From Oribacterium sp. NK2B42 (lineage in GTDB: Bacteria > Bacillota > Clostridia > Lachnospirales > Lachnospiraceae), in assembly GCF_000424445.1 (NCBI RefSeq), contig NZ_AUJX01000038.1:1-38852 (forward strand): a stretch of DNA of 38,852 nt. The letters are read 5' to 3'. Below the pieces are notes generated by a model. It was not told where the DNA came from and made no database searches. It saw nothing but the letters and a program-made list of their open reading frames with translations. Each line of letters starts with the position of its first letter. The stretch's first letter is position 1. Positions 2-14,323 of the stretch are shown here, one piece after another. Made by a program: the position numbers and the translations under genes.

Positions 2-787
2 ACAATAGCAAAATCAATGCTTCAGAAAATCCTTAAACAATCAGATATCAAGCCCTTCAAGATAAAGTATTATTGCGAAAAACGTGATCCTGATTTTGAA
101 GCAAAAAAGCATGACGTGTTGCTTGTATATAAACAAGTCAGCATGCAGTTCGACGAAGATGGAAACATCATAATACCTGATGACGGCATAATGGTTCATA
201 CCGTATCATGCGATGAAAAACCTGGAATACAGGCCATTGCAACAACCGGTGAGGATCTCCGTCCTACAGCGCAAAAAGGATGTGTAATGCGTGATGCTGA
301 ATATAAGCGCCTTGGAACACTTTCACTTCTTGCCGGAATTGATCTTCTCACAGGAGAAGCTATCCCTTATGTAAGCGAAACCCATAAGAGTTCTGATTTC
401 ATTGAACTCTTGAAAAAACTCGATACTCGATATCCTGAAGGAGATGTTATCCGTATTGTTTGCGACAATCACTCTGCACACAAATCAAAAGAAACAAGAA
501 ATTATCTCGCAACAAGGCCCGAGGGTCGTTTTGTTTTTGTGTTTACGCCTAAACATGGATCATGGCTTAACATGATAGAAAGCTTTTTCAGTAAGATGAC
601 CAAGCAAATGTTAAGAGGTATACGTGTAAAATCCAAGGAAGAACTTGAGCAGCGTATCTACCTCTATTTTGAAGAAGTAAATCGTGAACCTGTAGTTTAT
701 CATTGGACATACAAAATGGATGAAATCAGTGTTGCTGAAGCAGAGTCAGCTGGGATCAAATCTAACGAGATTATCAGTGTTAGTTAA
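2..787 (+). CDS. IS630-family transposase, 5' end cut by window edge
   Basis: This is the C-terminal two thirds of an IS630/Tc1-type DDE transposase. The reading frame is open to the first base of the window, and the residues before the first internal ATG (position 17) read like the linker between the HTH and catalytic domains of this family, so the real start lies outside. The catalytic triad is visible: the first Asp in SCDEKPGIQ, the second in CDNHSAHKS and the Glu in NMIESFFSKM. The end of the protein is intact. No inverted repeat could be paired because the left end is missing. The element sits at the edge of a defence-like island, which fits acquisition by mobile DNA. Confidence in the family is high; whether the copy is active cannot be judged. 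Confidence 0.9.
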   Translation, partial: TIAKSMLQKILKQSDIKPFKIKYYCEKRDPDFEAKKHDVLLVYKQVSMQFDEDGNIIIPDDGIMVHTVSCDEKPGIQAIATTGEDLRPTAQKGCVMRDAEYKRLGTLSLLAGIDLLTGEAIPYVSETHKSSDFIELLKKLDTRYPEGDVIRIVCDNHSAHKSKETRNYLATRPEGRFVFVFTPKHGSWLNMIESFFSKMTKQMLRGIRVKSKEELEQRIYLYFEEVNREPVVYHWTYKMDEISVAEAESAGIKSNEIISVS

Positions 788-862: not shown

Positions 863-1189
863 TCATCTCTTTATTGAAAATTTCTGATTCGAATAGTATT
901 TTTTCCATGACTCATCCTTATATATAAAAAAAGAGGGCATCTCGTCGTCGGTTTCTCCTTCACCGAGCAAGATGTCCTCTATAGTTGTTTCTAATAAGAT
1001 GCTCAAATTAAGCAAATTCTCAACATCAGGTAAGCATGAGCCCCGCTGCCATTTGTAAACAGCTTGAGGTGATATATTGTCCATCTTATGACATATATCA
1101 TCAACGCTTACACCTTTGAGCTTTCGAATCTTCTTAATTCGTTTTCCGATAGCTACTTGGTCTAAATAAATCTTAGATGCATTATTCAT
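863..1189 (-). CDS. XRE-family HTH regulator
   Basis: A 108-residue DNA-binding protein with an N-terminal Cro/CI-type helix-turn-helix at about residues 13-67 (IGKRIKKIRKLKGVSVDDI, then SPQAVYKWQRGSCLPD as the recognition helix region). The remaining 40 residues are polar and carry no recognisable effector domain. A GGAGG ribosome site lies 7 bases before the ATG. It follows the helicase operon on the same strand with a 142-bp gap, so it may be the last gene of that operon or have its own promoter. Inference: a regulator of the neighbouring defence-like genes, as XRE proteins often are in such islands. Confidence 0.85.
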   Translation of the reverse strand: MNNASKIYLDQVAIGKRIKKIRKLKGVSVDDICHKMDNISPQAVYKWQRGSCLPDVENLLNLSILLETTIEDILLGEGETDDEMPSFFIYKDESWKKYYSNQKFSIKR

Positions 1190-1331: not shown

Positions 1332-3203
1332 TTAATTTTCAACTACGACATCCGCGGAAAATAGATTCCCAAAAATTCTTCTCAATGCATTTTTATTCCT
1401 AGGGCCATTCAACGCTCCTTCGTCTATTTGTGAAACAACATTTAAATAGTCATCTTCTTTAAGCGTGCAAATCATATCAAGTTTACATTTTGCTCGAGAT
1501 GTACCTACATAAAACTCTTTTGCTCGATCTCCTGAAAAAGACATACTGTTTAAATTGAAAAGAATAACTGCATCGGCCTCAAGGCCCTTAAAAGTGATAC
1601 ATGTTGCAACCCTATATTTTTTTCCGTTGTATTTATAATAATCATAAGGATCCTCGTAGGTACTATTTATGAGTTTTTTGGCGATACTCGTTGATTCTAG
1701 CTTTCCTTGAGAAAGAATTACAATGTCATTAAATCCAAGTTCCTTATACTCATCTAATATTTTATTTAATACATCTATTTCGTTTTCTCTTGAATTTATC
1801 ACATGCATTATGGGGGTATATGGCTTCACCCATGAATATGCTGCATCAACTTTCAGTCCTTTTCCTCTTGCATCCTTAATCGGAGTTACAGATGTTTTAG
1901 CAATTTCTTTTGTATTTCTGCAGTTCTTATGAAGCGTCAATCTACAATCGGCTCCATCTATACAATCAGGGAGGATATTGTCTAAAACTTGTCCACCTTG
2001 GATTGTCTGATACTTATCATAGAAAAGGTAAAATGTTCCACCCTGTTCTAAAGCCGCATCCTGAAGCTTGTTTATGATTTCACAATTCTGTATTCCTTCC
2101 TCTTCTTTTTCGGGATGTTCTTTTAAATTTATGACGCCAAAATCCTGTCCTTCGTCCACAATAATGTGTTTATAGCCAAGTTCTGATTCACGCCTTATAC
2201 ATTTATCAAGCCATAATTCGAGACCGGCATAGTTTTCAAAGTCCCCGGTCTTATCCTTTGTGAGTTTACTAATAGTTCTAAAATCTACATTATCAAATTC
2301 AGGATTCTTTTTATTATCATCTTCTAACTGTTTCTGTAATTTTTTATTAAAACATAAGAATAAAACTTTATCACCCTCAATGCTATGGAGCCTTGCTTTC
2401 TCTACAGCTATCATGGTTTTACCAGTCCCAGCTGCACCATTTATGACAGCTGTAGGCTGCTCTGTCAAGAAATCGAGAATACGATATTGTTCTCTAATAA
2501 GCTGTTTTAAACGGAAGTTGATCAACCCATTAGTTGCCTCAGGAGATGGAATAAGATGGAATTCCGGACAAAGAACAGAATCTAAAAGTAATTTGAACTC
2601 ACCATCGTTCATACCGTTCGTCAAGCTAGGCTCATACTTCTCTTTAGGGATTTTAATGCTATATATTTTTTCAATCTTTGCCCAAATATCATCAAGGTCA
2701 TCCTGCAGGATAGTCATCTCCAAAGATGCTTCTTCAGGTAGACCTGGGAGATTTAGAAAATCATTCTTTCTCATATCAATAAAACATACAGCACTGATGA
2801 AACGGCACTTACCTAATAAGGCTCTTACTTTAGCTGATCTATTATACTTAACCTTGTCTCTTAAGACACGCATTGCCCCAGCAGACTGTTTGTATGGTCC
2901 GTTATGCTCCATTACCCTACCGCTACTGTAGTGCCATTCTCTATCTGAACCAGAATAATAAATATTTTCACCAGCTTTGGCCTCGATGCAGATTAAGCCT
3001 TTATTTGCATTTGCAATAACAAAATCAAGGTCTCTATCATATAGAGTATTGTCATCCTTGTTATATGCAACCGCATTGTAAGAATGAAAAACATAATAGT
3101 CTTCATTTCCGTTATAGTTGTTTTTTAACGCATTGAACAAAACATCTTCATGACTTCTTTTATCAAATTCTTTTGGCTCTTCAGGAATCATGTATACAGC
3201 CAT
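1332..3203 (-). CDS. NERD nuclease domain-UvrD-like superfamily 1 helicase fusion
   Basis: The 623-residue protein joins two modules. Residues about 15-115 form a NERD domain with PD-(D/E)xK-type residues in place: D58 and D60 in DRDLDF and E74-A-K76 in CIEAKAG, followed by the conserved Gln in GPYKQSAG. The rest is a UvrD/Rep-like SF1 helicase: Walker A GAAGTGKT near residue 257, Walker B HIIVDEGQDF near 349, a late motif FKGLEADAVIL and the arginine motif YVGTSRAK near 566. It is therefore expected to unwind and cut DNA. Its ATG directly follows the TAA of the 1780-aa helicase, with AGAGG upstream, so the genes are probably translated together. NERD helicases occur in several antiphage islands; the role as a third component of this module is inference. 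Confidence 0.88.
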   Translation of the reverse strand: MAVYMIPEEPKEFDKRSHEDVLFNALKNNYNGNEDYYVFHSYNAVAYNKDDNTLYDRDLDFVIANANKGLICIEAKAGENIYYSGSDREWHYSSGRVMEHNGPYKQSAGAMRVLRDKVKYNRSAKVRALLGKCRFISAVCFIDMRKNDFLNLPGLPEEASLEMTILQDDLDDIWAKIEKIYSIKIPKEKYEPSLTNGMNDGEFKLLLDSVLCPEFHLIPSPEATNGLINFRLKQLIREQYRILDFLTEQPTAVINGAAGTGKTMIAVEKARLHSIEGDKVLFLCFNKKLQKQLEDDNKKNPEFDNVDFRTISKLTKDKTGDFENYAGLELWLDKCIRRESELGYKHIIVDEGQDFGVINLKEHPEKEEEGIQNCEIINKLQDAALEQGGTFYLFYDKYQTIQGGQVLDNILPDCIDGADCRLTLHKNCRNTKEIAKTSVTPIKDARGKGLKVDAAYSWVKPYTPIMHVINSRENEIDVLNKILDEYKELGFNDIVILSQGKLESTSIAKKLINSTYEDPYDYYKYNGKKYRVATCITFKGLEADAVILFNLNSMSFSGDRAKEFYVGTSRAKCKLDMICTLKEDDYLNVVSQIDEGALNGPRNKNALRRIFGNLFSADVVVEN

Positions 3204-6200
3204 TTATCTATTCCTCTCTATTATTGAAATTACAGATAATAAATCATCGATATTAAGTGACTCATCAAGCATAAAGCAATACCAATCATAGGTCTTAAGC
3301 AAATCAAAATGCTCTTTCTGACCTTTCCAGAATAGTGCCACCTTTGAATTCGGCCAAAAAACAGATGGCCAAACATCGCCTTCCTTTAGTTCTATTTTGT
3401 TATACATCACTGGATTTTCATAATCCTTATCCTTGAGCTTGTTATACACTTTTTCAAATATAGCTTTTTCATTCTTGGATAATTCATCATCATCCATCGA
3501 CATAAATTCAATGTATACTTCATCTATAGTATTACGTTTATCATCATAATCAGAACCACTATAATCCGAAATAACTCTTACGCCCTTTTCCAGTTTTGTA
3601 TTAACATTAGAAATAAGCTTATCTGTTTTTTCTTCGCAATTAACATTAGTTATTGAAGAATCACTAAGTAACCAATCTAAATACCTATACGCAATACCTC
3701 TAGATAAAACATCATGGAAATACTGGTTTCCATAGTTTCTAAGGCATCCATAACAGGAGGTTTCTTCTGTACACCCACAGGAACCGTTTACCTTTTCTTT
3801 TGCCTTAGATAATACGTCTTCAATATGTTCATAAATGTGCTTAACAAATCCAGAGCCGCCCGGTGTATCATCATATAGAATAATCTGATGATTACCCGTA
3901 ACACACCCACTTATATCTCCTCTATTAATATCTAATGCAGAACTTGCACCCTCAAGGATTGAATACATCACAGACAAATCCTGATTCTTTAATTCTAATG
4001 AACCTGATTGTGTTAGTTCTATATCATGTTCTGGAAGCTGTATTTTCAAAATATCAGTCGAAAATACATGACCAAGAGATACTCTCTGTAACATTTTGTT
4101 GCTACACTTATGACCATACTTGTTCTTATGGCTTTTTTCTTTATATAATTTGTCAATTTCTGTAGCATATCCACACTCAGGACATACGTATATTCCTGCC
4201 CCGTTTGTTCCTTGGTTTAATACAAATAGTTTTCCTCCAGGAGAATATTTAGCGCTTACTTCCTTGCCGTTAATAATGGTTTTTTTTGATTTGACTTCGA
4301 GCTGCTGTCTTTCTGTCAAGTCAGTATCACACCAATACTGAGTTTGTGTAGCATAATATGCTCGAGGGCGCGTCTCTCCAACCATCTTTGGCTTCTCTGA
4401 ATAAGATGTAGAAAAACCAAATAACGGTATAATAAATTTTTTCGGATTGGTTTCTATTTTACAATCAGGACATATACCGGATGAATCATCTATATTTATA
4501 GTCACTTCAGTCATTTCTCCCTTGGGCGGGAAAATCCTCTTACATTTAGGACATTCATGATAAACATAAGTTGGCCAGCTTTTATCCGGAATAGTATTGA
4601 TTGCGTAGCTTTTCCATTGTTTTCCATTAGCAACAATCTGTGCCGGAGGAGCAAATTCACTTATGGCCATCCTTAAATCTCTTGATAGATCCAGTTTCTC
4701 AGCCTCTTTATTTTTATTATTTAAGATGTCTAGGGAAACAGTATCAATAGGAAATCCATATTTAGGCAGTACACCCTTAGAGCTAAGAAAGCTAATAGAT
4801 GCTTCATCATTTAATGTTTCAATCAGCTTTGTAACAGCCCTTGCTTCACTTAATTCCTTTCCAGTACTGTCTGGATTAATATTTTTCTTTAATTCCGTAA
4901 GGCCAGAAATATCAGCTTCTCGTTCCTTAATAGCAAGATTTAACTTACCGGAATCACCTAGAAGATCTTTAACAAATCCCCAATCATCAACTTTAAGAAG
5001 ATCACAGAGTTTTTCGTCAAAGACATTGTGTATTGTATCCAATAACTCCTGTGGCTTAGTATCAAGATATTTTTCAAGTTCCACTGCCATGTTGTCTTTA
5101 GTCTCGTAGGCTACGATACGTTTTGTTTTATCTTTAAAGAACTCCGGTTTTAATTTAAAGAATGAAGCTATAATTATCGAGTTTAAATGTCTTTGAGCAA
5201 TCTTTTCGTTATCAACTTCAAGTAAAGGGGCGGCAATTTTACCTGAAATGATTTCCGCAGGATTTTGAAAAAAAGTCATATCGTGACTATTTCGTCTTGC
5301 AAATGTCACAGAAAAAGCCGCAGAAGAAGTTCTTCGACCTGCACGTCCTGCTCTCTGTATATAATTTGAGGTCTCCGGCGGAACATTTCTTTGGAAAGTA
5401 GCTTCAAGCTCACCAACATCGACACCCATTTCAAATGTTGTAGAACAACTAAGCACATTAATAGCGCCTTCTTCAAACAGTTTCTGGTATTGGCCGGCCG
5501 TTTTTGAAGATAATTGAGCTGTATGTTCCCTAGCAACCATGGGCACAAACTGTTCACCACCATACAGGCTGTCATAATAATTATCTTTTCGTACATCACC
5601 GGCAGCAATGGTTTCAAGCTCACCATCACATTTAAGTTCCGGACATAAATCCATTAATGAATAAGAAAATATTTTTCCGCATTTTTTACATCTAAATATG
5701 TTTTCTTCAGGCTTTATATATTTGAACTTCCATTTTCGATAATTAAGCTCATAAATAACTCCGCTTTCATTAGATGTATCATCGCTAATGTAGCCCTTAT
5801 TTTTAAAAACTTTTGTGATATCATCATAACACTGCTCAAGGTTGCTAATAGCGATACTTTCATTTTCTTCCTCGGCTTCATGTTTGCTTAATATTTTTTT
5901 GAACATTGCAGAACGTTTGTTTTTATGCCCCTCGCTCGGCATAAACCCATATATATAGCCTTTTTTATATAATGTTTCATTTCCACTAATCCTAAAATAT
6001 CTAACATGATTTCGTGGAGAAAAGAAATCATCTTCAGCACTTATCTCCGAAGGAAATGTTACAGCACCTTTTTGTCTAAGTGTATCAAAGACAAATCTAT
6101 ATACTTTCCAAATATTCTTTCCGCCATTGACACCATATCTTGAAGCATCAGATTTTAACGGCAATTCCTGTGGCATGATCTGGATATAGCCCATTCCCTC

Positions 6201-8546
6201 GAGACCTGTTGCAATATCGGGAGATATAAATTCAGACATAATATAATGTGCAGCCATCGCTTTCTTCTGTTCGTTGCCCATCATACTTGCATCAAGATTG
6301 TTATTTTGTTCAACTAAATCAAGCGCATAAAGACCTTCTCTATCAGCCAACTGTTTTGCCTTAGCTATAAGATCATCTACAGACAGTTCTCCTCCATCTG
6401 CTTCTTTTAAGCAATTAAGAATTACCTTTCTCCACATTGCAAGTCTATATTTTTTTTCAAAAAATCCTGCGAAAAATGCCGCTTCTTGACGATTATCCGA
6501 GAATACTAAGAGCTTACGACCACTTTCATCGATAACTCTTTCGTCAATATTAACAGATTCAGGTAGAATATCTCCGAAAAGATCGTCGCTGAATAAATCG
6601 TCTTCCAATTCATTCGAACTTGATGATGATTTACCATTTATAGGTCTTGGAGGAATTGCATCATACAAGCTTTTTGCAACAGCAAAAGTTGCAGGCTGGT
6701 TTGCTGTTAAAAAGCGTTTGATCAGTCCCTCTTTTGTTGCGCCACAAGAAGGGCAACAGTTAGATTCTTTGCCCTTTCCTGAATATCTAAGATTATAAAC
6801 AGTAACAATCTTCCCTGGATCATTGGTCTTACAGCAATTATAACTGGTTTCTTCGGCATATTCCGAAATCCTACCACACGAAAGACAGAGTTTATATTTG
6901 TCCAAAGATGAAAAATTTGCTTTTTCATCTAAATTGTCATCCTCATCAAATGTTTCATCTATTATATTTTTATCTGATATAAAATAAAATTCAGGCTTTT
7001 CTGAAGCACTTGTTTGAACGAGATAGTTTTTACCATTTCTGTAAATTGTTTTTCCCAGTATGTACTCTTGTCCGCATTTCTGACAGTTTGCCATTTCAAA
7101 TACGGAATATTCCCCCGTGGCATCCCTGTTTTTTTCCTTACGATCAAGGAAAACTCGTTTACGAGGATAATACTGCACGAACATCCCTTCTAAAGATTTA
7201 ACAAAGAGATGATATCTTGCCGGTAGTAATGCTGACTCAAATTCACTTTTTTTTGCAGCTGCTGAAAGTTCAATTAATGTTATTAATGATTCTTCTCTTG
7301 AAGAAATATCTTTTAAATCATAAAAAACCGCATCTGCAACTTCAATAATATCTTTTGGTTTATCCTGTAATATATCATAGAGTAGGAATAACCTATTATC
7401 ATTTACTAGCTTTTCATATAAATATTTTCCCTTTTCCCAATCAGGCATATCAGCCACTTCTTCCTTGAGTTTTTTATACTCATCAAGACTGAAATTTCTT
7501 GAACCGCTAGATTGTTCCCTTTTTTTACGCTCAGTTGTAATTACGTCATTCTCATTAAATGGCTCACCAAATAACTGAGAGGCAAATTCAGCCAATGCAG
7601 CCTTACCACCTTCTGTCCCCAAAGTAGCACTGGTTGCAATACATCTAAAATCCTCTGTACGATGGTGCTTGATTCTTTCTTTTAATCTACGTAATAAAAA
7701 TGCAATTTCTGTTCCTGTGGCTCCTTTATACGTATGGGCCTCATCAATTACAATAAACTTCCAATTTTTTGCCTTTGATGTATCAAAAAAAGGAGCAGTA
7801 TTAGGCTGTAGGAGCATATACTCAAGCATTGCATAGTTCGTGAGCAATATATGCGGTGGATTCTTAGCCATGAATTCTCTGCACATGTATTCATTTGGTA
7901 TAGATTTTCTTGAATCCGAATCAGTATCATCCTGATGCTGAACATCGTATTCTTTATGTAAACGTTTTTCTGCATCCTCCGGTTCCTCATTTGTTTTGGC
8001 ATGCAGAGTTTCACCTGTATACCTGCCAAATGTTATATCAGGATACTCAGCAAGGAGTTTTCTAAGCTTCTTTTGTTGATCGTTAGCTAATGCATTCATT
8101 GGAAAAATCAGCAAAGCTCTTACACCTGCATCAAGGTTTCCCTGCTCTTTTTCACGCATTAGTTGGTTGAATATAGGATATAAATAACATTCCGTTTTTC
8201 CTGATCCTGTACCAGTAGAAACAACCATATTTCGATTGTCTTCTATTATGTGTCTAAGTGCATTTTCCTGATGGACACGTAGCTTCCAATCCTCATAATG
8301 GACTCTTTTCCCCATTTTTGAAAACTCCGTACTAACAAGTCCTTCTTCAGCAAGTTCTTTTAAGGTCTTACCATCTTTAAAAGGGAGTGTGGTTTCGAGG
8401 AATGGACCCTTTACAAAATTCGTGTGATAAACTTCTTCTTTTGCTAATTTGCTAATTTCTTTATCTCTAACAGTCAATATCGAAGAGACATAACGCTTAT
8501 AATCTTTCTTAATCTTATCCGTAGTTGTTCTTGGGTTCATTGACAT
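3204..8546 (-). CDS. Large DEAH helicase with zinc clusters and DUF1998-type C-terminus (DruE-like)
   Basis: A 1780-residue superfamily 2 helicase. The N-terminal RecA lobe has VHQENALRHI, Walker A STGTGSGKTE (about 110-119), LIFPMNALANDQ, DEAH at 268-271 and SAT at about 305. After a long insertion rich in CxxC pairs (CQKCG, CLSCG, CCPSCG, CKKCG), the second lobe carries FSDNRQEAA, TTFEMGVDVG and YIQRAGRAGRR (about 1070). The C-terminus has more zinc pairs (CPKC, CPDC, CPECG), the LYDDTPGGSGF motif and the four-Cys cluster CGCTEETSCYGC (about 1592), typical of DUF1998/MrfA-type proteins. Length and order match DruE-type helicases of Druantia better than MrfA, which is under half this size. 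It starts 2 bp after the upstream stop codon, so it forms one operon with both flanking genes. The helicase call is firm; the Druantia assignment is a hypothesis. Confidence 0.88.
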   Translation of the reverse strand: MSMNPRTTTDKIKKDYKRYVSSILTVRDKEISKLAKEEVYHTNFVKGPFLETTLPFKDGKTLKELAEEGLVSTEFSKMGKRVHYEDWKLRVHQENALRHIIEDNRNMVVSTGTGSGKTECYLYPIFNQLMREKEQGNLDAGVRALLIFPMNALANDQQKKLRKLLAEYPDITFGRYTGETLHAKTNEEPEDAEKRLHKEYDVQHQDDTDSDSRKSIPNEYMCREFMAKNPPHILLTNYAMLEYMLLQPNTAPFFDTSKAKNWKFIVIDEAHTYKGATGTEIAFLLRRLKERIKHHRTEDFRCIATSATLGTEGGKAALAEFASQLFGEPFNENDVITTERKKREQSSGSRNFSLDEYKKLKEEVADMPDWEKGKYLYEKLVNDNRLFLLYDILQDKPKDIIEVADAVFYDLKDISSREESLITLIELSAAAKKSEFESALLPARYHLFVKSLEGMFVQYYPRKRVFLDRKEKNRDATGEYSVFEMANCQKCGQEYILGKTIYRNGKNYLVQTSASEKPEFYFISDKNIIDETFDEDDNLDEKANFSSLDKYKLCLSCGRISEYAEETSYNCCKTNDPGKIVTVYNLRYSGKGKESNCCPSCGATKEGLIKRFLTANQPATFAVAKSLYDAIPPRPINGKSSSSSNELEDDLFSDDLFGDILPESVNIDERVIDESGRKLLVFSDNRQEAAFFAGFFEKKYRLAMWRKVILNCLKEADGGELSVDDLIAKAKQLADREGLYALDLVEQNNNLDASMMGNEQKKAMAAHYIMSEFISPDIATGLEGMGYIQIMPQELPLKSDASRYGVNGGKNIWKVYRFVFDTLRQKGAVTFPSEISAEDDFFSPRNHVRYFRISGNETLYKKGYIYGFMPSEGHKNKRSAMFKKILSKHEAEEENESIAISNLEQCYDDITKVFKNKGYISDDTSNESGVIYELNYRKWKFKYIKPEENIFRCKKCGKIFSYSLMDLCPELKCDGELETIAAGDVRKDNYYDSLYGGEQFVPMVAREHTAQLSSKTAGQYQKLFEEGAINVLSCSTTFEMGVDVGELEATFQRNVPPETSNYIQRAGRAGRRTSSAAFSVTFARRNSHDMTFFQNPAEIISGKIAAPLLEVDNEKIAQRHLNSIIIASFFKLKPEFFKDKTKRIVAYETKDNMAVELEKYLDTKPQELLDTIHNVFDEKLCDLLKVDDWGFVKDLLGDSGKLNLAIKEREADISGLTELKKNINPDSTGKELSEARAVTKLIETLNDEASISFLSSKGVLPKYGFPIDTVSLDILNNKNKEAEKLDLSRDLRMAISEFAPPAQIVANGKQWKSYAINTIPDKSWPTYVYHECPKCKRIFPPKGEMTEVTINIDDSSGICPDCKIETNPKKFIIPLFGFSTSYSEKPKMVGETRPRAYYATQTQYWCDTDLTERQQLEVKSKKTIINGKEVSAKYSPGGKLFVLNQGTNGAGIYVCPECGYATEIDKLYKEKSHKNKYGHKCSNKMLQRVSLGHVFSTDILKIQLPEHDIELTQSGSLELKNQDLSVMYSILEGASSALDINRGDISGCVTGNHQIILYDDTPGGSGFVKHIYEHIEDVLSKAKEKVNGSCGCTEETSCYGCLRNYGNQYFHDVLSRGIAYRYLDWLLSDSSITNVNCEEKTDKLISNVNTKLEKGVRVISDYSGSDYDDKRNTIDEVYIEFMSMDDDELSKNEKAIFEKVYNKLKDKDYENPVMYNKIELKEGDVWPSVFWPNSKVALFWKGQKEHFDLLKTYDWYCFMLDESLNIDDLLSVISIIERNR

Positions 8547-8548
8547 AA

Positions 8549-11500
8549 TTAGACACCCTCTTTTCTTCTTAAATAAACAAATAATGCAGCCATTATTAAA
8601 TCTCTTTCAGCCATATATGGTGCAATTTCAAATGCATTAACCATGAAATTTCGTGCTTCCTCTTTTATTCCATTATATTTCTGTGGAACATCAAGTGATA
8701 CTAGCAGTGCAGATAGAGCTTCAAAGTAAAAAAAGTTTGGCAATGAGAACCCTGTAGGATCTCCAGAAGTTCTCTTCTGAAGCACATTATTATACTCTTT
8801 TACATAAGTTCCAATTTGTTCGTCTCTTTGCAAAGCAAAAATATTGTTCCATACATTCGTCTTAAAAGATCTATATGAATCCTTTATTTTCTTTTCCTTT
8901 TCAGCTTCTATAGCACCTCCTTTTGGATGGTTCCTTATATACCAATTGACGAACAGATCTGAATATCTAGTGCCACTTAAATAAATACCACTATCTGGAA
9001 TTTTGTCTTTATCCAAATATATTTTCCCACTTTTGCTCCGTTTTTCATCTATCATCTCATAGAACTGATTGATACCTGATATTTGTTCCGTTAAATTAAT
9101 ATGAACATGACTTTGACCATCTTCTTTTAAGAAATGTCTCCTGTCTTCGTTTTTTATTTCATCTGAAACGTCACTATTCATCATTTCTATAACAGCTTGC
9201 TGACCTATCAGTTCTCTGTATATTGGGTCTCCGATTGTTTCCCTGATAGGAGAGTCTTTTCTCATCAGCAGTAATAATGATAGTTTAGGGTAATAATGTT
9301 TTACTTCTCCTGCCAACTCCTTTATCTGATTTGGAAGTAAATCGTCGTCAATTTCAGTTAATAATAATGAATAATTATTTAAGCATTGATGAAATACATA
9401 ATCACTTGCATTTACTTCAATAAGTTTTTTTATCACCGTATACCTATCTTTGCCTGAAAGTATATATCGTGAAACATTACACATATACTCTGAAATAATG
9501 TCTTTATGTTCATCTGAAATTTTAGCCTCCAACATAAATCCAAAACTGACCAAATTTAATATATCCCAATCTGTCAGTGTAGAACCTTTATATTTTTGCA
9601 GATCGTTACGTAATAAGTAACTTGATGACTCTTTTAATTTACTCAGCTTGTTACCGTTTCTATACATAACCAAATCGCTTAGTGCCTGATCCACCCAAAC
9701 ACTAAAGCTATCAATAGGTGTATCTTTTTCCTTTCTTGATACAACAAATTGATCCTTTTCCAGCGTTATATGAAAATCATCATCAAATAAAAACAAATCA
9801 CCAGCTTTATTATTCCTAACTAATCTGTAAAAACCCGGAGTCAACGCGTCCATATCATTAAATGTATAAACCCTCCATCCTTTACTGTTGATGGTAGAGC
9901 ATTCATATTTTAATGGCATACGATAATTTTTATCTCCGAATTTTTCCAAGTGAACATCATCATCTATGTCTTCATTTTTGATTCCAAGGATTTTTTTCTT
10001 ATACACATATTGCGGACGTGTTCGAAATTTGATTTTTTCATCTACAAAAATCAAAATATATTCTTCATCAGTCTGATTATTATGTATAACAATTTCTGCA
10101 GGAAGTGGAACATTTTGTATTGTATCTCTAAAAACGCTAAGGTCAGCGTTAATAGAGCCATTATTATTCAGCTTTATCTGCCTCTTTTGTTCAATTCCGT
10201 TAATCGATTTTAACTGTATCTCATATTCATTCTTTGAGTATTCTCCATAAACAGCTATTGATGCCCAAGGAGTTCCCTCAAGAAAATCATCGAGCTCACA
10301 TTTTTCCGAAATATCCGTATCAGAAACTAGTTCTGCTTTAAGAGCACATATTGGAAGCTCAAAATCAACTAAAACATGAAGGTTATCTTGCTTTGAAACA
10401 ACGCTTCCTCTCAACGTTCCTTCGGAATACGGAACAGATATTACATATTTATCAATAAGGTCCTGAACATTACCATTTTCAAAACATAAAGCCCATCCCT
10501 TTATCTTATTTATCGAAAATTTAGCAATTCTATTTTTGAAAAATTTGTCAGGCCATGGAAGAGAGGTATCATAATTTGTATGAAACTTTGGCAATAGACA
10601 GAATCTTTCTTCCTTAATAAATCGGCCATACTGATATACTCTAATAACATTAATTCCAAAACAATCATCTTCAATTGCATCACTTAAGTCGATGATGTTT
10701 TCTTTATCTAGATTAAGTCCTTGAACAGAGATCCTATTATGGCCTATATGTATCTCGATACCTTCGGTATTACTGAAGCCTTTAAATGACAAACTAATTT
10801 TAGGGATATCTAAAAACAATGGTATTTCAGATTCTATGTAATCAGAATCAAATAGTTTTCTTCCATGAAGTGTTATACTGAGCTGTGGTCTCATTAGAAG
10901 GACTATATCTCCGCAATTAGTGGTAATAGTCATTCTGGCATCAGCAGTAATTGGTGTTATTTGTTCTATTTTATAATCCGAAGTAATAAGTGGGTAACTT
11001 TGAACATCTCGAATAACATTACTGGATTGAATTTTATACTGTGAGGGATAAATAAGGTATCCATATGGTGCACGTAAATAACTATTATTTATTTTTCTTC
11101 CGCTGGAATTAAAATAAAACACCTCACATTCATCTGAATATAATCCTTTCAATCCATATGAGGATTGGTGAAGATCAAAACCGTCATCATATTCAAATGT
11201 GATTGATAGAAATTTACATAGTTTCACCGGAACAATCATCTGATCAACATAACGCTTACCTTCGGCACCTTGTACATATGCAATCTTTTCAACCTTAAAA
11301 TCTCGATCACCTTTGATGTTCCACTTTGCACTCTCGACCCATTCCTCGGACATATTTATACGAGGAAGAACCACACATAATCCATTTTTTCTGTAATCAA
11401 GAAAATAATAAGGCCGTACTTCAACTTTATCTTCATCTTTTTTGTTTTTATACGAACCCTTTTCCTTATCAAGTTCAACCCACTCTAAATACGCTTCAGA

Positions 11501-12142
11501 ATACTTACCTGATAAATCAGAAGACTGAGTTGCTGAAAGAAATGTATCCTGAACATCAAGGATAAAATTAATTGCTCTGTAGTCTGGTGAATATTCCAAA
11601 AAATGCAAAAGAGGTTTATGTACTCCGTACGACCTTGAAGTAATTTCGTCAATGAGAATCTGAGGTTCTACATTATTCATGAACCCGTACTTAATAATAT
11701 AGAATAGATCTCCAAGATTACTCTCGGGTGGCTCTCCTACCTGATATAAAATAGAATCTACGTATTTTCTTGGAGAATTATTTGCAGCACTATAGTCCAT
11801 TCCACACAGACTAAATGTAGATAAAATCATAGTTCCAATTTGAATCTGGTCAGCTGCATTTATCTTTTCTAGACCTACTTCATCACATATCATGCCCCAT
11901 AGATCACCTTTATAATAATACTTCGCCAAAAAGACCACATATGTCACCATAGCATAGCGAAATTGTTTGAAAAGAGTTTTGAAGTCATATCCACTATGTA
12001 GGCACTCAATGATTTTATCTTTAATTACCTTTAAATCATCTTTTGTAATATCTATTTGTCCCCAATATTCGGCATCTTTGATTTTTGATTTAATAACTAT
12101 ATCTATAATGGTTAATGAATCATCATATGTGAAGTTTAACAA
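8549..12142 (-). CDS. 1197-aa protein of unknown function upstream of the DUF1998 helicase (possible DruH-like)
   Basis: No known domain is recognised. Residues 1-190 look mainly helical (for example FKTLFKQFRYAMVTYVVFLAKYY has the feel of a packed helix); about 240-830 are rich in short beta-strand patterns with alternating hydrophobic residues, resembling stacked beta-sandwich units; the last 330 residues are helical again. There is no signal peptide, Walker motif, nuclease motif or Cys cluster. The start is a TTG at 12142: GGAGGG lies 6 bases upstream and no in-frame ATG is near. It is the first gene of the three-gene operon with the two helicases. Position and size match DruH of two-gene Druantia type III, a family also without known domains, but I cannot confirm similarity without a search. 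Confidence 0.75.
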   Translation of the reverse strand: MLNFTYDDSLTIIDIVIKSKIKDAEYWGQIDITKDDLKVIKDKIIECLHSGYDFKTLFKQFRYAMVTYVVFLAKYYYKGDLWGMICDEVGLEKINAADQIQIGTMILSTFSLCGMDYSAANNSPRKYVDSILYQVGEPPESNLGDLFYIIKYGFMNNVEPQILIDEITSRSYGVHKPLLHFLEYSPDYRAINFILDVQDTFLSATQSSDLSGKYSEAYLEWVELDKEKGSYKNKKDEDKVEVRPYYFLDYRKNGLCVVLPRINMSEEWVESAKWNIKGDRDFKVEKIAYVQGAEGKRYVDQMIVPVKLCKFLSITFEYDDGFDLHQSSYGLKGLYSDECEVFYFNSSGRKINNSYLRAPYGYLIYPSQYKIQSSNVIRDVQSYPLITSDYKIEQITPITADARMTITTNCGDIVLLMRPQLSITLHGRKLFDSDYIESEIPLFLDIPKISLSFKGFSNTEGIEIHIGHNRISVQGLNLDKENIIDLSDAIEDDCFGINVIRVYQYGRFIKEERFCLLPKFHTNYDTSLPWPDKFFKNRIAKFSINKIKGWALCFENGNVQDLIDKYVISVPYSEGTLRGSVVSKQDNLHVLVDFELPICALKAELVSDTDISEKCELDDFLEGTPWASIAVYGEYSKNEYEIQLKSINGIEQKRQIKLNNNGSINADLSVFRDTIQNVPLPAEIVIHNNQTDEEYILIFVDEKIKFRTRPQYVYKKKILGIKNEDIDDDVHLEKFGDKNYRMPLKYECSTINSKGWRVYTFNDMDALTPGFYRLVRNNKAGDLFLFDDDFHITLEKDQFVVSRKEKDTPIDSFSVWVDQALSDLVMYRNGNKLSKLKESSSYLLRNDLQKYKGSTLTDWDILNLVSFGFMLEAKISDEHKDIISEYMCNVSRYILSGKDRYTVIKKLIEVNASDYVFHQCLNNYSLLLTEIDDDLLPNQIKELAGEVKHYYPKLSLLLLMRKDSPIRETIGDPIYRELIGQQAVIEMMNSDVSDEIKNEDRRHFLKEDGQSHVHINLTEQISGINQFYEMIDEKRSKSGKIYLDKDKIPDSGIYLSGTRYSDLFVNWYIRNHPKGGAIEAEKEKKIKDSYRSFKTNVWNNIFALQRDEQIGTYVKEYNNVLQKRTSGDPTGFSLPNFFYFEALSALLVSLDVPQKYNGIKEEARNFMVNAFEIAPYMAERDLIMAALFVYLRRKEGV

Positions 12143-12267
12143 TGCAATCCCTCCGATAATACTATTTCCTATATTTTAAACTATTAAGATCTAATAATAA
12201 GTAACCCATTGGTTTAATCTTTAGAAAAATACATAATACTATCTTTAATCCCTTTTAATTCGCATGC

Positions 12268-12540
12268 TTAGATTCCTTTAACATATCCAACAAACTTATT
12301 TGTTTTAGAGTCTTCATGAAAACTTGTAATATAGTTTCGACCATACAATTTTTCTAAGAGTTCTCTTTTATATTCGGAAATAATTAATTTAAACCCATGT
12401 CTTTTTTCTTTTTGCGTCAAACCATAGTATGTTTCATCCAATCCAAAGAACAATTCAGATAATTCATCATTCTCATATAACGAAATCTGATTAAGTAGTT
12501 TTAATTTTGATAACAATTTTTTGAGTTTAATCATGCTCAT
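12268..12540 (-). CDS. Hypothetical 90-aa basic protein
   Basis: A small Lys/Leu-rich protein (MIKLKKLLSKLKLLNQI at the start) of no recognised family. Two ATGs are possible, 12540 and 12534; the second overlaps the stop codon of the reconstructed AlbA_2 gene upstream by 8 bases (ATGATTAA), an arrangement typical of translational coupling. The only ribosome-site-like sequence, AAAGG, is rather far (14 bases) from the first ATG. The reading frame is uninterrupted and residue use is protein-like (YYGLTQKEKRHGF, GRNYITSFHED), so it is probably real, but function is unknown. Confidence 0.45.
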   Translation of the reverse strand: MSMIKLKKLLSKLKLLNQISLYENDELSELFFGLDETYYGLTQKEKRHGFKLIISEYKRELLEKLYGRNYITSFHEDSKTNKFVGYVKGI

Positions 12541-14002
12541 TAAGTATATACTTACCTTTACCCTTTCCCTTAATCGGAGAAATAATATTGTTCGTTTCCA
12601 TTATTTTAAAACATACCTGGCTTTTGTAGTTTTGCACGAAAGGATTTGCATTATTTCCTTAGAAGTAACTACCTGCATTATTTCTATGTTATTAATTATT
12701 GTTTCAATCTCTCCCAGATCCTTTGGGGATAGTTCTCTAACCAGTTCTTTATTATGAAGTTTTTCTAATAATAAGTCTTTGCCATGAATCGACGTGATAT
12801 TCTCTCCAATCGACGCAAAACCTGCCGATTGAGCCTTGTATGATGCACTTTAACCGTTGTTTTAAGAATAAACGTCTTATTGTCATATAGCGGATCAGGT
12901 AGACCTGCAGACTCAAGCTCTTTACACATACGGTCTACGCCTTCACCATACTCCTTTACGTATCCATAATCCTTCAGAAATGCTGCAATCTTTGGGTTAC
13001 GGGAAAAATGTGTATGTCTGATATTGTCCTTTGTAACCATACCGGCAAAAGTTCCGGGACTGTCTACCTCAAGGCGGTCATCAAACATCTTGATCTGAAT
13101 ATCGGTACCCTTTATTCCATAATCTCTGTGGGTAACAGCATTTACAATGATCTCTGTACGTACGAACTCACTGTATTCTTCCTCGGTGACAAATATTCCG
13201 TCATGTCCAAGATATGTTTTTTCCTTCATTTGGATCTTGATGTATTCAACAGCCTTTTCAACCTGTTCCAGGATCCGACCTTCAAATATCACATCTTTGA
13301 TGACATTCATATCTTTTCCAACCTTAGCCTCTGTACCATCATATCTTATGAATCGTATAAAGGCTCTCGGAAAAAACAGCTGAGGATTCTTTCCGAACAG
13401 CAAAATTGCAGCTATTGAAATCTGTTCTTTACCATCTTTAACTTGAACAAACTTCTTATTCTCTCTGACGTATTCTAAAGGCGATTTACCATAACCTATG
13501 TGCCTGCAGTACTCGCCTATAAACTCCAAATCAAGATCATCTATGGTTGCATCTGCCACAGGTTCATCTTCATAATAGCGAACTCCTTTCGCATACATCA
13601 GTGTCATTCGATCATTAAAGTCGAGCTTCTTGCTTTTATCTCCAACACGTATAAATGCTTCATCTGACTGATTGGCATGGAGCAGTGGGCTTGCCTCAAT
13701 ATACATCAGTAAAACATGATCCGGCTTTCCATCATGATTGATACATTCGACCATTTCAGCTGTAATCGGAACCGTAGGATTACAAAAATCTATAGGTGTC
13801 CTGAGAATCTCATTTAACTGTTCTGTATGATAATCAACACCTTCAATCCTGCGTGTTTTATCAGATATGCCTATAGCCACAGTTCCGCCATCTGCATTAG
13901 CAAAAGCACATATTGTATCAGACAAATCAGCCGGCTTGATATTTATACTCTTTCGGTCAAAGATCTGTTTCCATCTTTTTCTAAGACCTCTTTTATCGTC
14001 AT
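12527..14002 (-). pseudogene. AlbA_2/COG2865 ATP-binding transcriptional regulator, three frameshifts
   Basis: The longest open piece (13925-12765) holds the end of an AlbA_2 domain (SDTICAFANADGG, GIS) and a GHKL-like ATPase half (FVRTEIIVNAVTHRDYG, DDRLEVDSPG, RNPKIAAFLKDYGYVKEYGEG). It lacks an ATG. Upstream, an ATG at 14002 with AGGAAGG 8 bases before it begins MTIKEVLEK and must join the main frame (IFDRKSINIKPADL) near a run of five A at 13976-13980. Downstream of TTVK the sense passes to another frame, SASYKAQSAGFASIGENITS onward, giving a winged helix (TSKEIMQILSCKTTKARYVLK) until 12601, and then to a third frame, METNNIISPIKGKGKGKY, ending at 12527. Each shift is repaired by adding one A. 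Either the gene is decaying or the assembly has homopolymer errors. The family binds DNA and is often tied to stress or defence regulation. Confidence 0.82.
12541..12554. promoter_or_regulatory. 14-bp perfect palindrome at a start codon
   Basis: TAAGTATATACTTA is its own reverse complement and ends exactly at the ATG of the 90-aa protein. It lies inside the last codons of the AlbA_2 reading frame, so it may be coincidence, or an operator of a homodimeric regulator such as the XRE proteins nearby. Confidence 0.3.
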
Positions 14003-14092: not shown

Positions 14093-14323
14093 TTATTTCT
14101 TTTCACGTGTGTCTCCTTCATCATCCGGGATCATTTCCATAATGTCACCAACATCACAACTAAGGCAGTCGCATATCCTCATGATGACATCCATGGAAAT
14201 ATTTTCATTCTTTCCCATCTTTGCAATGGTATTTGGACTGGTCCTTACGGCTTCCATGAGTTCAGTCTTATTCATGCCCTTATCTATTAGTAATTTCCAT
14301 AATTTGTTGTAGCTAACTTTCAT
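14093..14323 (-). CDS. Small XRE-family (HTH_26/YozG-like) regulator
   Basis: A 76-residue protein that is almost entirely a Cro/CI-type HTH: YNKLWKLLIDKGMNKTELM, then TSPNTIAKMGKNENISM and IMRICDCLSCDVGDIMEM, the usual ending of this compact group. An acidic/basic tail follows. The ribosome site AGAGGA lies 9 bases before ATG. It precedes the frameshifted AlbA_2 gene by 90 bp on the same strand, so the two were probably co-transcribed as a regulatory pair. It lies divergent to the glycosyltransferase gene. Confidence 0.88.
   Translation of the reverse strand: MKVSYNKLWKLLIDKGMNKTELMEAVRTSPNTIAKMGKNENISMDVIMRICDCLSCDVGDIMEMIPDDEGDTREKK

Follow-up and report, generated by a model that had tools for sequence, protein, structure and literature searches.

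A Druantia III-like module of Oribacterium sp. NK2B42 with a DruE tail and a NERD-UvrD gene: a putative exchangeable nuclease-helicase cassette

The way in which YprA-family defence helicases are linked to nucleases is an open question, many DruE proteins of Druantia III-like systems reportedly having no nuclease domain (PMC12458937, accessible text). A case in point is a three-gene module of Oribacterium sp. NK2B42 in which a DruE-like helicase (gene 2) lies between a large protein of no recognised family (gene 1) and a NERD nuclease fused to a UvrD-type helicase (gene 3). The module is encoded on contig NZ_AUJX01000038.1 (contig 32 in a 95-contig genome), the whole of which, 38,852 nucleotides, was analysed and is called the window below; other loci and genomes are designated by our own L and G numbers. 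A preliminary description made from the sequence alone had read the module as a Druantia-like system extended by a nuclease-helicase. Our results support this reading and add two features missed there, a C-terminal tail on DruE and an apparent exchange of the nuclease-helicase between systems. We consider it probable, from sequence comparisons, that the module is a Druantia III-like anti-phage system in which an exchangeable "tail + NERD-UvrD" cassette would provide, in trans, the nuclease missing from DruE.

The three genes and their relatives

The three genes lie on one strand, separated by 2 nt (genes 1 and 2) and 0 nt (genes 2 and 3), an arrangement noted in the preliminary description and borne out by the coordinates of the open reading frames (ORFs; Table 1). 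Family scans with PADLOC, Pfam and NCBIfam covered seven proteins around the module. In Pfam, gene 2 combines DEAD, Helicase_C and MZB domains (the last formerly DUF1998; 52.3 bits), and the PADLOC models DruE1 and DruE3 matched it with 624 and 591 bits, respectively. Compared with solved structures, its 1780-aa product reached 282 bits with DruE (9tu7) and 86 bits with YprA/MrfA (6znp). The preliminary description had proposed such a profile comparison and named a grouping with housekeeping MrfA-type helicases as the result that would speak against its reading; gene 2 proved much more similar to Druantia DruE than to MrfA/YprA. Judged by these scores, gene 2 is DruE-like, of the defence and not of the MrfA type, with the MZB/DUF1998 domain that Druantia requires. 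No PLD domain was matched at its C-terminus, where only 158 residues follow the end of MZB, and Pfam recognised no nuclease domain in the protein. Among the best 80 of 588 DruE relatives, collected with a four-row DruE alignment and one genome per species, the closest was that of Ruminococcus flavefaciens YRD2003 (L009), whose alignment covers residues 1-1773 and reaches 58% identity in its best segment.

Gene 1 matched zero families in PADLOC, Pfam and NCBIfam at E values up to 1, and a single-sequence search returned only the window itself across two sets of related genomes (98 and 392), plasmids, phages and viral contigs. Relatives were found in L009 (565 bits) and L115 (605 bits). A two-row profile (window and L009) reached L022 (102 bits), L013, L011 and L012, and the next round reached the mycobacterial partners L029 (86 bits) and L030 (97 bits). 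Through these intermediates, gene 1 is grouped by profile similarity with the large proteins whose genes immediately precede that of DruE. In both rounds, all 76 reversed partners stayed above E 0.3. Six of 430 other proteins fell below E 1e-3 in the second round, four of them being partner genes or parts of partner genes: those of L017, L041 and L036 extend up to the start of DruE and represent partners missed by ORF picking, and that of L076 is the gene preceding the picked partner. The other two are unsettled, one located about 3 kb upstream of DruE (L062) and one upstream in the operon and unexplained (L006, 32.5 bits).

The resulting 19-row gene 1 family was compared by hhalign with six E. 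coli-type DruH proteins, the profile of which matches the solved DruH structure 9tud. The two families matched at 95.8% over 615 columns, in order, and the controls (reversed, shuffled and unrelated profiles) gave at most 0.2%. Two residues of gene 1 that do not vary within these 19 rows, W82 and P138, are aligned with W88 and P139 of DruH; in E. coli, the changes W88A and G136A/G137A abolish Druantia III (PMC13192584, accessible text). Experiments have shown the DruH-DruE pair of Mycolicibacterium smegmatis to be an active type III Druantia (PMC13316683, accessible text), the partners in L029 and L030 standing in our comparison for M. smegmatis DruH itself. PADLOC found zero families in all eight gene-1-related partners scanned, the two mycobacterial ones included, and a PDB profile search with the gene 1 family gave nothing convincing. 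The comparison of the 1197-aa protein with DruH, also suggested in the preliminary description, thus revealed a distant DruH relative: by profile alignment, gene 1 is a divergent DruH, a remote homologue.

In gene 3, Pfam recognised NERD (31.2 bits, cut-off 22.1) and AAA_19, together with weak UvrD-like matches. The D..ExK nuclease site, the Walker A motif and the DEGQD motif are intact, and D60, E74 and K76 of the NERD site are invariant in six homologues, in agreement with the intact PD-(D/E)xK site reported earlier for the third protein.

Conservation of the three genes as a set had been left to be checked, its absence being the second result that would speak against the earlier reading. 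The set is conserved: its genes occur together in the window, in L009 and in L115, and because all three recur in R. flavefaciens, where the middle protein has 58% identity, we regard the module as more than a chance assemblage. In L115 (3406-12619, genome G620), the window-type set has a DruE of 1335 aa and a gene 3 without start, reflecting decay or misassembly.

The module shares with Druantia III of E. coli and M. smegmatis the large partner gene located closely before DruE, the partner of the window being by profile comparison a remote DruH homologue. It differs from Druantia III by the lack of a detected PLD at the end of DruE, by the third, NERD-UvrD gene, and by a gene 1 unseen by the PADLOC models; canonical E. 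coli Druantia III has two PLD domains at the DruE C-terminus. The "Druantia Type III-like" branch of the YprA tree, in which DruE mostly has no nuclease domain (PMC12458937, accessible text), resembles the window in its DruE without recognised nuclease and its DruH-like partner, a likeness by description and not by tree placement, but the accessible text mentions no NERD-UvrD gene for this branch. Druantia type IV has the same DruE core together with DruF and DruL (PMC8565338, accessible text), whereas PADLOC found no Dru protein other than DruE in the scanned part of the window. NERD is listed for Mokosh I and Nhi-like systems (PMC10952713, accessible text). A NERD-UvrD partner of DruE or DrmB is unreported in the accessible text of PMC12458937 and PMC10952713; preprints outside PubMed Central were not covered and a prior description is possible.

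The DruE tail, the NERD-UvrD group and their separate histories

The DruE of the window extends 158 residues beyond the point after which 67 of 90 DruEs stop within 33 residues (a few of the 90 being cut by contig ends). This tail, 137-164 aa long in the six carriers measured, is absent from most DruEs examined and common to most NERD-linked carriers, including one DrmB. Of the 90 DruEs, leave-one-out tail profiles picked just four, those of the window, L009, L044 and L048 (E 4e-15 to 6e-22); the extensions of L010 and L077 are similar to the other tails in length and place. At new loci, a six-row tail profile scored 77.6 bits in L113, 48.7 in L114 and 19.8 in L116, and a nine-row profile 50.5 bits in L163. 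Among 265 Clostridia genomes, the tail search gave 13 matches, of which five cover the tail proper (window, G604, G628, G523 and G708) and eight only the end of the MZB region. All tails of at least 50 bits stand beside gene 3 (the profile itself includes most of them), as does one of the three divergent tails (L157, L065 and G708).

The DrmB carrier belongs to a DISARM operon (L114, 3256-15052, genome G628) encoding a C5 methylase, DrmE, DrmA, DrmB with the tail, and NERD-UvrD. It thus has the same tail and the same gene 3 subfamily as the window, but the carrier is DrmB and is preceded by DrmA, DrmE and the C5 methylase. No PLD was matched among the eight proteins scanned in this locus.

A pattern noticed by eye in the tail (W..KVALF...W) had given the idea of a degenerate Vsr-type nuclease; this idea is unsupported because hhalign gave no match to other long DruE tails (at most 1.7%). 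A PDB profile search with the tail gave nothing convincing.

Among the loci first selected by DruE, a gene 3 homologue was located immediately downstream of DruE in L009, L010, L044, L048 and L077 as well as in the viral contig L092. In L040 it adjoins DruE on the upstream side, and in L030 it lies at a greater distance. Searches starting from gene 3 used a six-row alignment, its rows chosen for lying beside DruE, and gave 10 matches with E at most 1e-20 in 391 Clostridia genomes, 32 with E at most 1e-40 in 398 genomes of the phylum and six with E at most 1e-40 in 247 genomes of the family of L009. All six matches of at least 450 bits outside the model (G604, G628, G620, G523, G1210 and G1486) abut DruE (five) or DrmB (one). 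A DruE end was beside none of the 37 weaker matches examined, and a DrmB-like protein preceded six of them (flanks of about 1.5 kb; six matches of the phylum search without a locus are excluded from the 37). In these six loci, L121 (L112), L133, L143, L152, L153 and L154, NERD-UvrD directly follows the DrmB-like gene and this tail is lacking; PADLOC confirmed DrmB only for L114 and L121.

Altogether, 12 loci, the window among them, have a NERD-UvrD gene of one and the same subfamily directly adjoining a gene for DruE or DrmB, and in these the two genes overlap or are at most 12 nt apart. The first gene matched the gene 1 family profile in L113 (144 bits) and L048, and weakly in L077 (14 bits) and L116 (12 bits). 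The neighbour in L044 joined the partner cluster only via links to other partners, the 1167-aa neighbour in L157 gave no match to the gene 1 family, L010 and L163 are cut by contig ends (L163 showing the DruE end only) and L114 is DISARM. Since the partners differ across the 12 loci, gene 3 accompanies several kinds of first gene. The DruH-like partner of L077 (1211-4678) has a C-terminal SSB domain (residues 1059-1150), in keeping with a single-stranded DNA target.

In a 25-row gene 3 tree, the 12 gene 3 proteins formed one group with support 87/89 (100/100 for the inner nine rows), and their nearest neighbours were five NERD-UvrDs located beside neither DruE nor DrmB. We also built a 51-row gene 3 tree. 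In contrast to this single group, the ten tail-type DruEs were recovered in six separate places of a 54-row DruE tree (chosen rows, 650 thinned columns). Forcing these ten into one clade lowered the log-likelihood by 1206 (p 3e-63 in the approximately unbiased test, performed on 52 rows with two long rows left out), and one clade was thus rejected. An earlier DruE tree required six changes for eight NERD-linked rows, L040 and L092 included; it omitted L001-L004 (window or duplicates), L008 (same contig as L047), L071, L085, L097 and L099, as well as ORFs below 1000 aa (L076). L114, with DrmB as carrier, and L163, with a DruE end at a contig end, are in neither DruE tree.

The two genes also differed in their sister groups: L113 was sister to L044 in the gene 3 tree (100/99) and to L048 in the DruE tree (100), and L010 was sister to L116 in the former (97/95) and to the window group in the latter (99). 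The simplest account of these trees would be that the tail and gene 3 were transferred as a pair, in one direction or the other, from one DruE lineage to another as well as between operons of Druantia-like and DISARM type.

Surroundings of the module and related loci

The features of the window are listed in Table 1. Genes for HTH proteins lie on either side of the module, as the preliminary description had stated for its flanking regulators. The AT-rich composition it reported was also recovered, the 1-kb bins of the module having 32-37% GC against 36-46% beyond 14 kb. It had further placed an IS630 element at the edge: a DDE_3 transposase ORF is indeed present there, cut by the contig end, IS630 being a name used for this type of transposase. 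Because the window is a whole contig, this left end is an end of the assembly. No GajA, which in Gabija stands beside GajB, was found among the seven proteins scanned.

Table 1. Coordinates of the module and of neighbouring features in the window.
Feature	Position	Strand	Description
Gene 1	8549..12142	minus	1197 aa, TTG start; divergent DruH-like partner, candidate infection sensor
Gene 2	3204..8546	minus	1780 aa; DruE-like YprA-family helicase, DEAH box, MZB/DUF1998
Gene 2 C-terminal tail	3204..3680	minus	about residues 1623-1780
Gene 3	1332..3203	minus	623 aa; NERD nuclease domain fused to UvrD-type helicase
Shine-Dalgarno-like hexamer	12149..12154	minus	GGAGGG, 6 nt upstream of the gene 1 TTG start
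HTH gene	863-1189		adjoins the module; HTH_3, 25 bits (cut-off 23)
HTH gene	14093-14323		about 2 kb upstream of the module, two other genes between; HTH_26, 70.7 bits
Transposase ORF	2-787		DDE_3; truncated by the contig end
90-aa gene	12268-12540	minus	just upstream of the module; no significant family match
Schlafen AlbA_2 + HATPase_c_4 gene	12765-13925		upstream of the module; PADLOC pAgo-model match 121 bits; AlbA_2 match starts at profile position 22

The genome of the window contains a second YprA-family locus (L172, G000:C16:53000-71824), encoding in order a type IIG methylase-like protein of 1573 aa, a DruE-like protein of 2148 aa, a UvrD helicase of 693 aa with an unrecognised N-terminal part, GajA and GajB; it looks like an ARMADA-like system beside Gabija. 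Ruminococcus phage NatCom_28274 (L005, 7245-14668) carries a Druantia III-like pair, a 917-aa partner-like protein and a 1558-aa DruE, between endolysin and exonuclease/polymerase genes, and a near-identical DruE is present in L078. L064 (9983-18575) encodes a 1997-aa DruE, which has a long C-terminal extension, and downstream of it an 861-aa UvrD helicase whose first 230 residues have no Pfam match.

Proposed mechanism and competing explanations

The role of sensor probably falls to DruH in E. coli, where DruE is a helicase-nuclease effector acting on intermediates that contain single-stranded DNA (PMC13192584, accessible text). By analogy, gene 1 would probably sense infection, and the DruE of gene 2 could load on single-stranded or branched phage DNA and open it. 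Gene 3, at a guess, would then be recruited via the DruE tail, the fold of which is guesswork too, to the DNA-bound complex, bringing a nuclease and a second helicase motor in trans and cutting the DNA opened by DruE. Tail and gene 3 together would form a portable cassette that has passed from one DruE lineage to another and, on a single occasion, to the DrmB of a DISARM operon.

Several observations weigh against this reading. The DruH match falls to 0.6-0.7% when only two or six rows of the gene 1 family are used, so that the relationship has to be seen as remote homology through intermediates, and the PADLOC models detect no DruH at the locus; the DruH beside DruE expected of type III is recovered there by remote homology, for which the 19-row family is needed. 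The tails of L010 and L077 fell short of significance once they were excluded from the profile, the L157 tail is weak (16 bits with the nine-row profile), the shortened DruE of L115 has no tail, and two tails, both weak, have no gene 3 neighbour (L065, 7.5 bits; G708, 17 bits). The NERD-UvrD neighbours of DruE in L040 (upstream) and L092 (downstream) fall outside the gene 3 group in the 51-row tree, and their DruEs lack this tail. Finally, genes of the same operon can be linked without contact between their proteins.

In an explanation that we hold to be rather unlikely, the tail and gene 3 would both be hitch-hiking: a block of DNA would be swapped by recombination where druE or drmB ends (3' end), and gene 3 would be a separate single-gene defence without contact with DruE. 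The gene 3 relatives found without DruE or DrmB (31 of the 37 weaker matches, within flanks of about 1.5 kb) and the tails without gene 3 in L065 and G708 favour it, but tails of at least 50 bits (most of them in the profile) occur only beside gene 3, on two different carriers, and the tight spacing of carrier and gene 3 in all 12 loci also argues against it.

The module could alternatively belong to another class of YprA systems. In ARMADA type II, the YprA helicase precedes a UvrD/GajB-like helicase that bears an RNase domain at its N-terminus, and in TALON a NERD nuclease accompanies a YprA helicase whose inactivated C-terminal domain has the RNase H fold (PMC12458937, accessible text). However, ARMADA also includes genes for BrxHII and PglX, and its RNase is RelE-like where the window has NERD; TALON has TPR-CSD and TBP genes and, in the accessible text, no mention of a UvrD part. 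Among the seven proteins scanned we found no separate BrxHII helicase, PglX methylase, TPR-CSD or TBP, and the partner of the window groups with DruH-like proteins, making either assignment very improbable. A DNA-repair operon of the MrfAB type, which the MZB domain and SF2 helicase core of gene 2 might recall, has hardly any likelihood: the YprA/MrfA structure scored 86 bits against 282 for DruE, no MrfB-like match was obtained among the seven proteins, and gene 1 is patchy, present only in the window's own genome among the 98 and among the 392 searched.

Beyond the Druantia III-like system preferred here for the window, we lean slightly towards a general plug-in in YprA-family immunity, in which a short C-terminal adaptor on an MZB/DUF1998 protein, DruE or DrmB, would recruit NERD-UvrD, one cassette replacing the built-in nucleases PLD, Vsr and DrmC. 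For one group of these systems, the joint occurrence of tail and nuclease-helicase on two carriers offers a directly testable answer to the question of helicase/nuclease coupling, and the tail can serve as a marker for finding further such systems. If this proposal is true, Druantia-like and DISARM systems would exchange effector parts.

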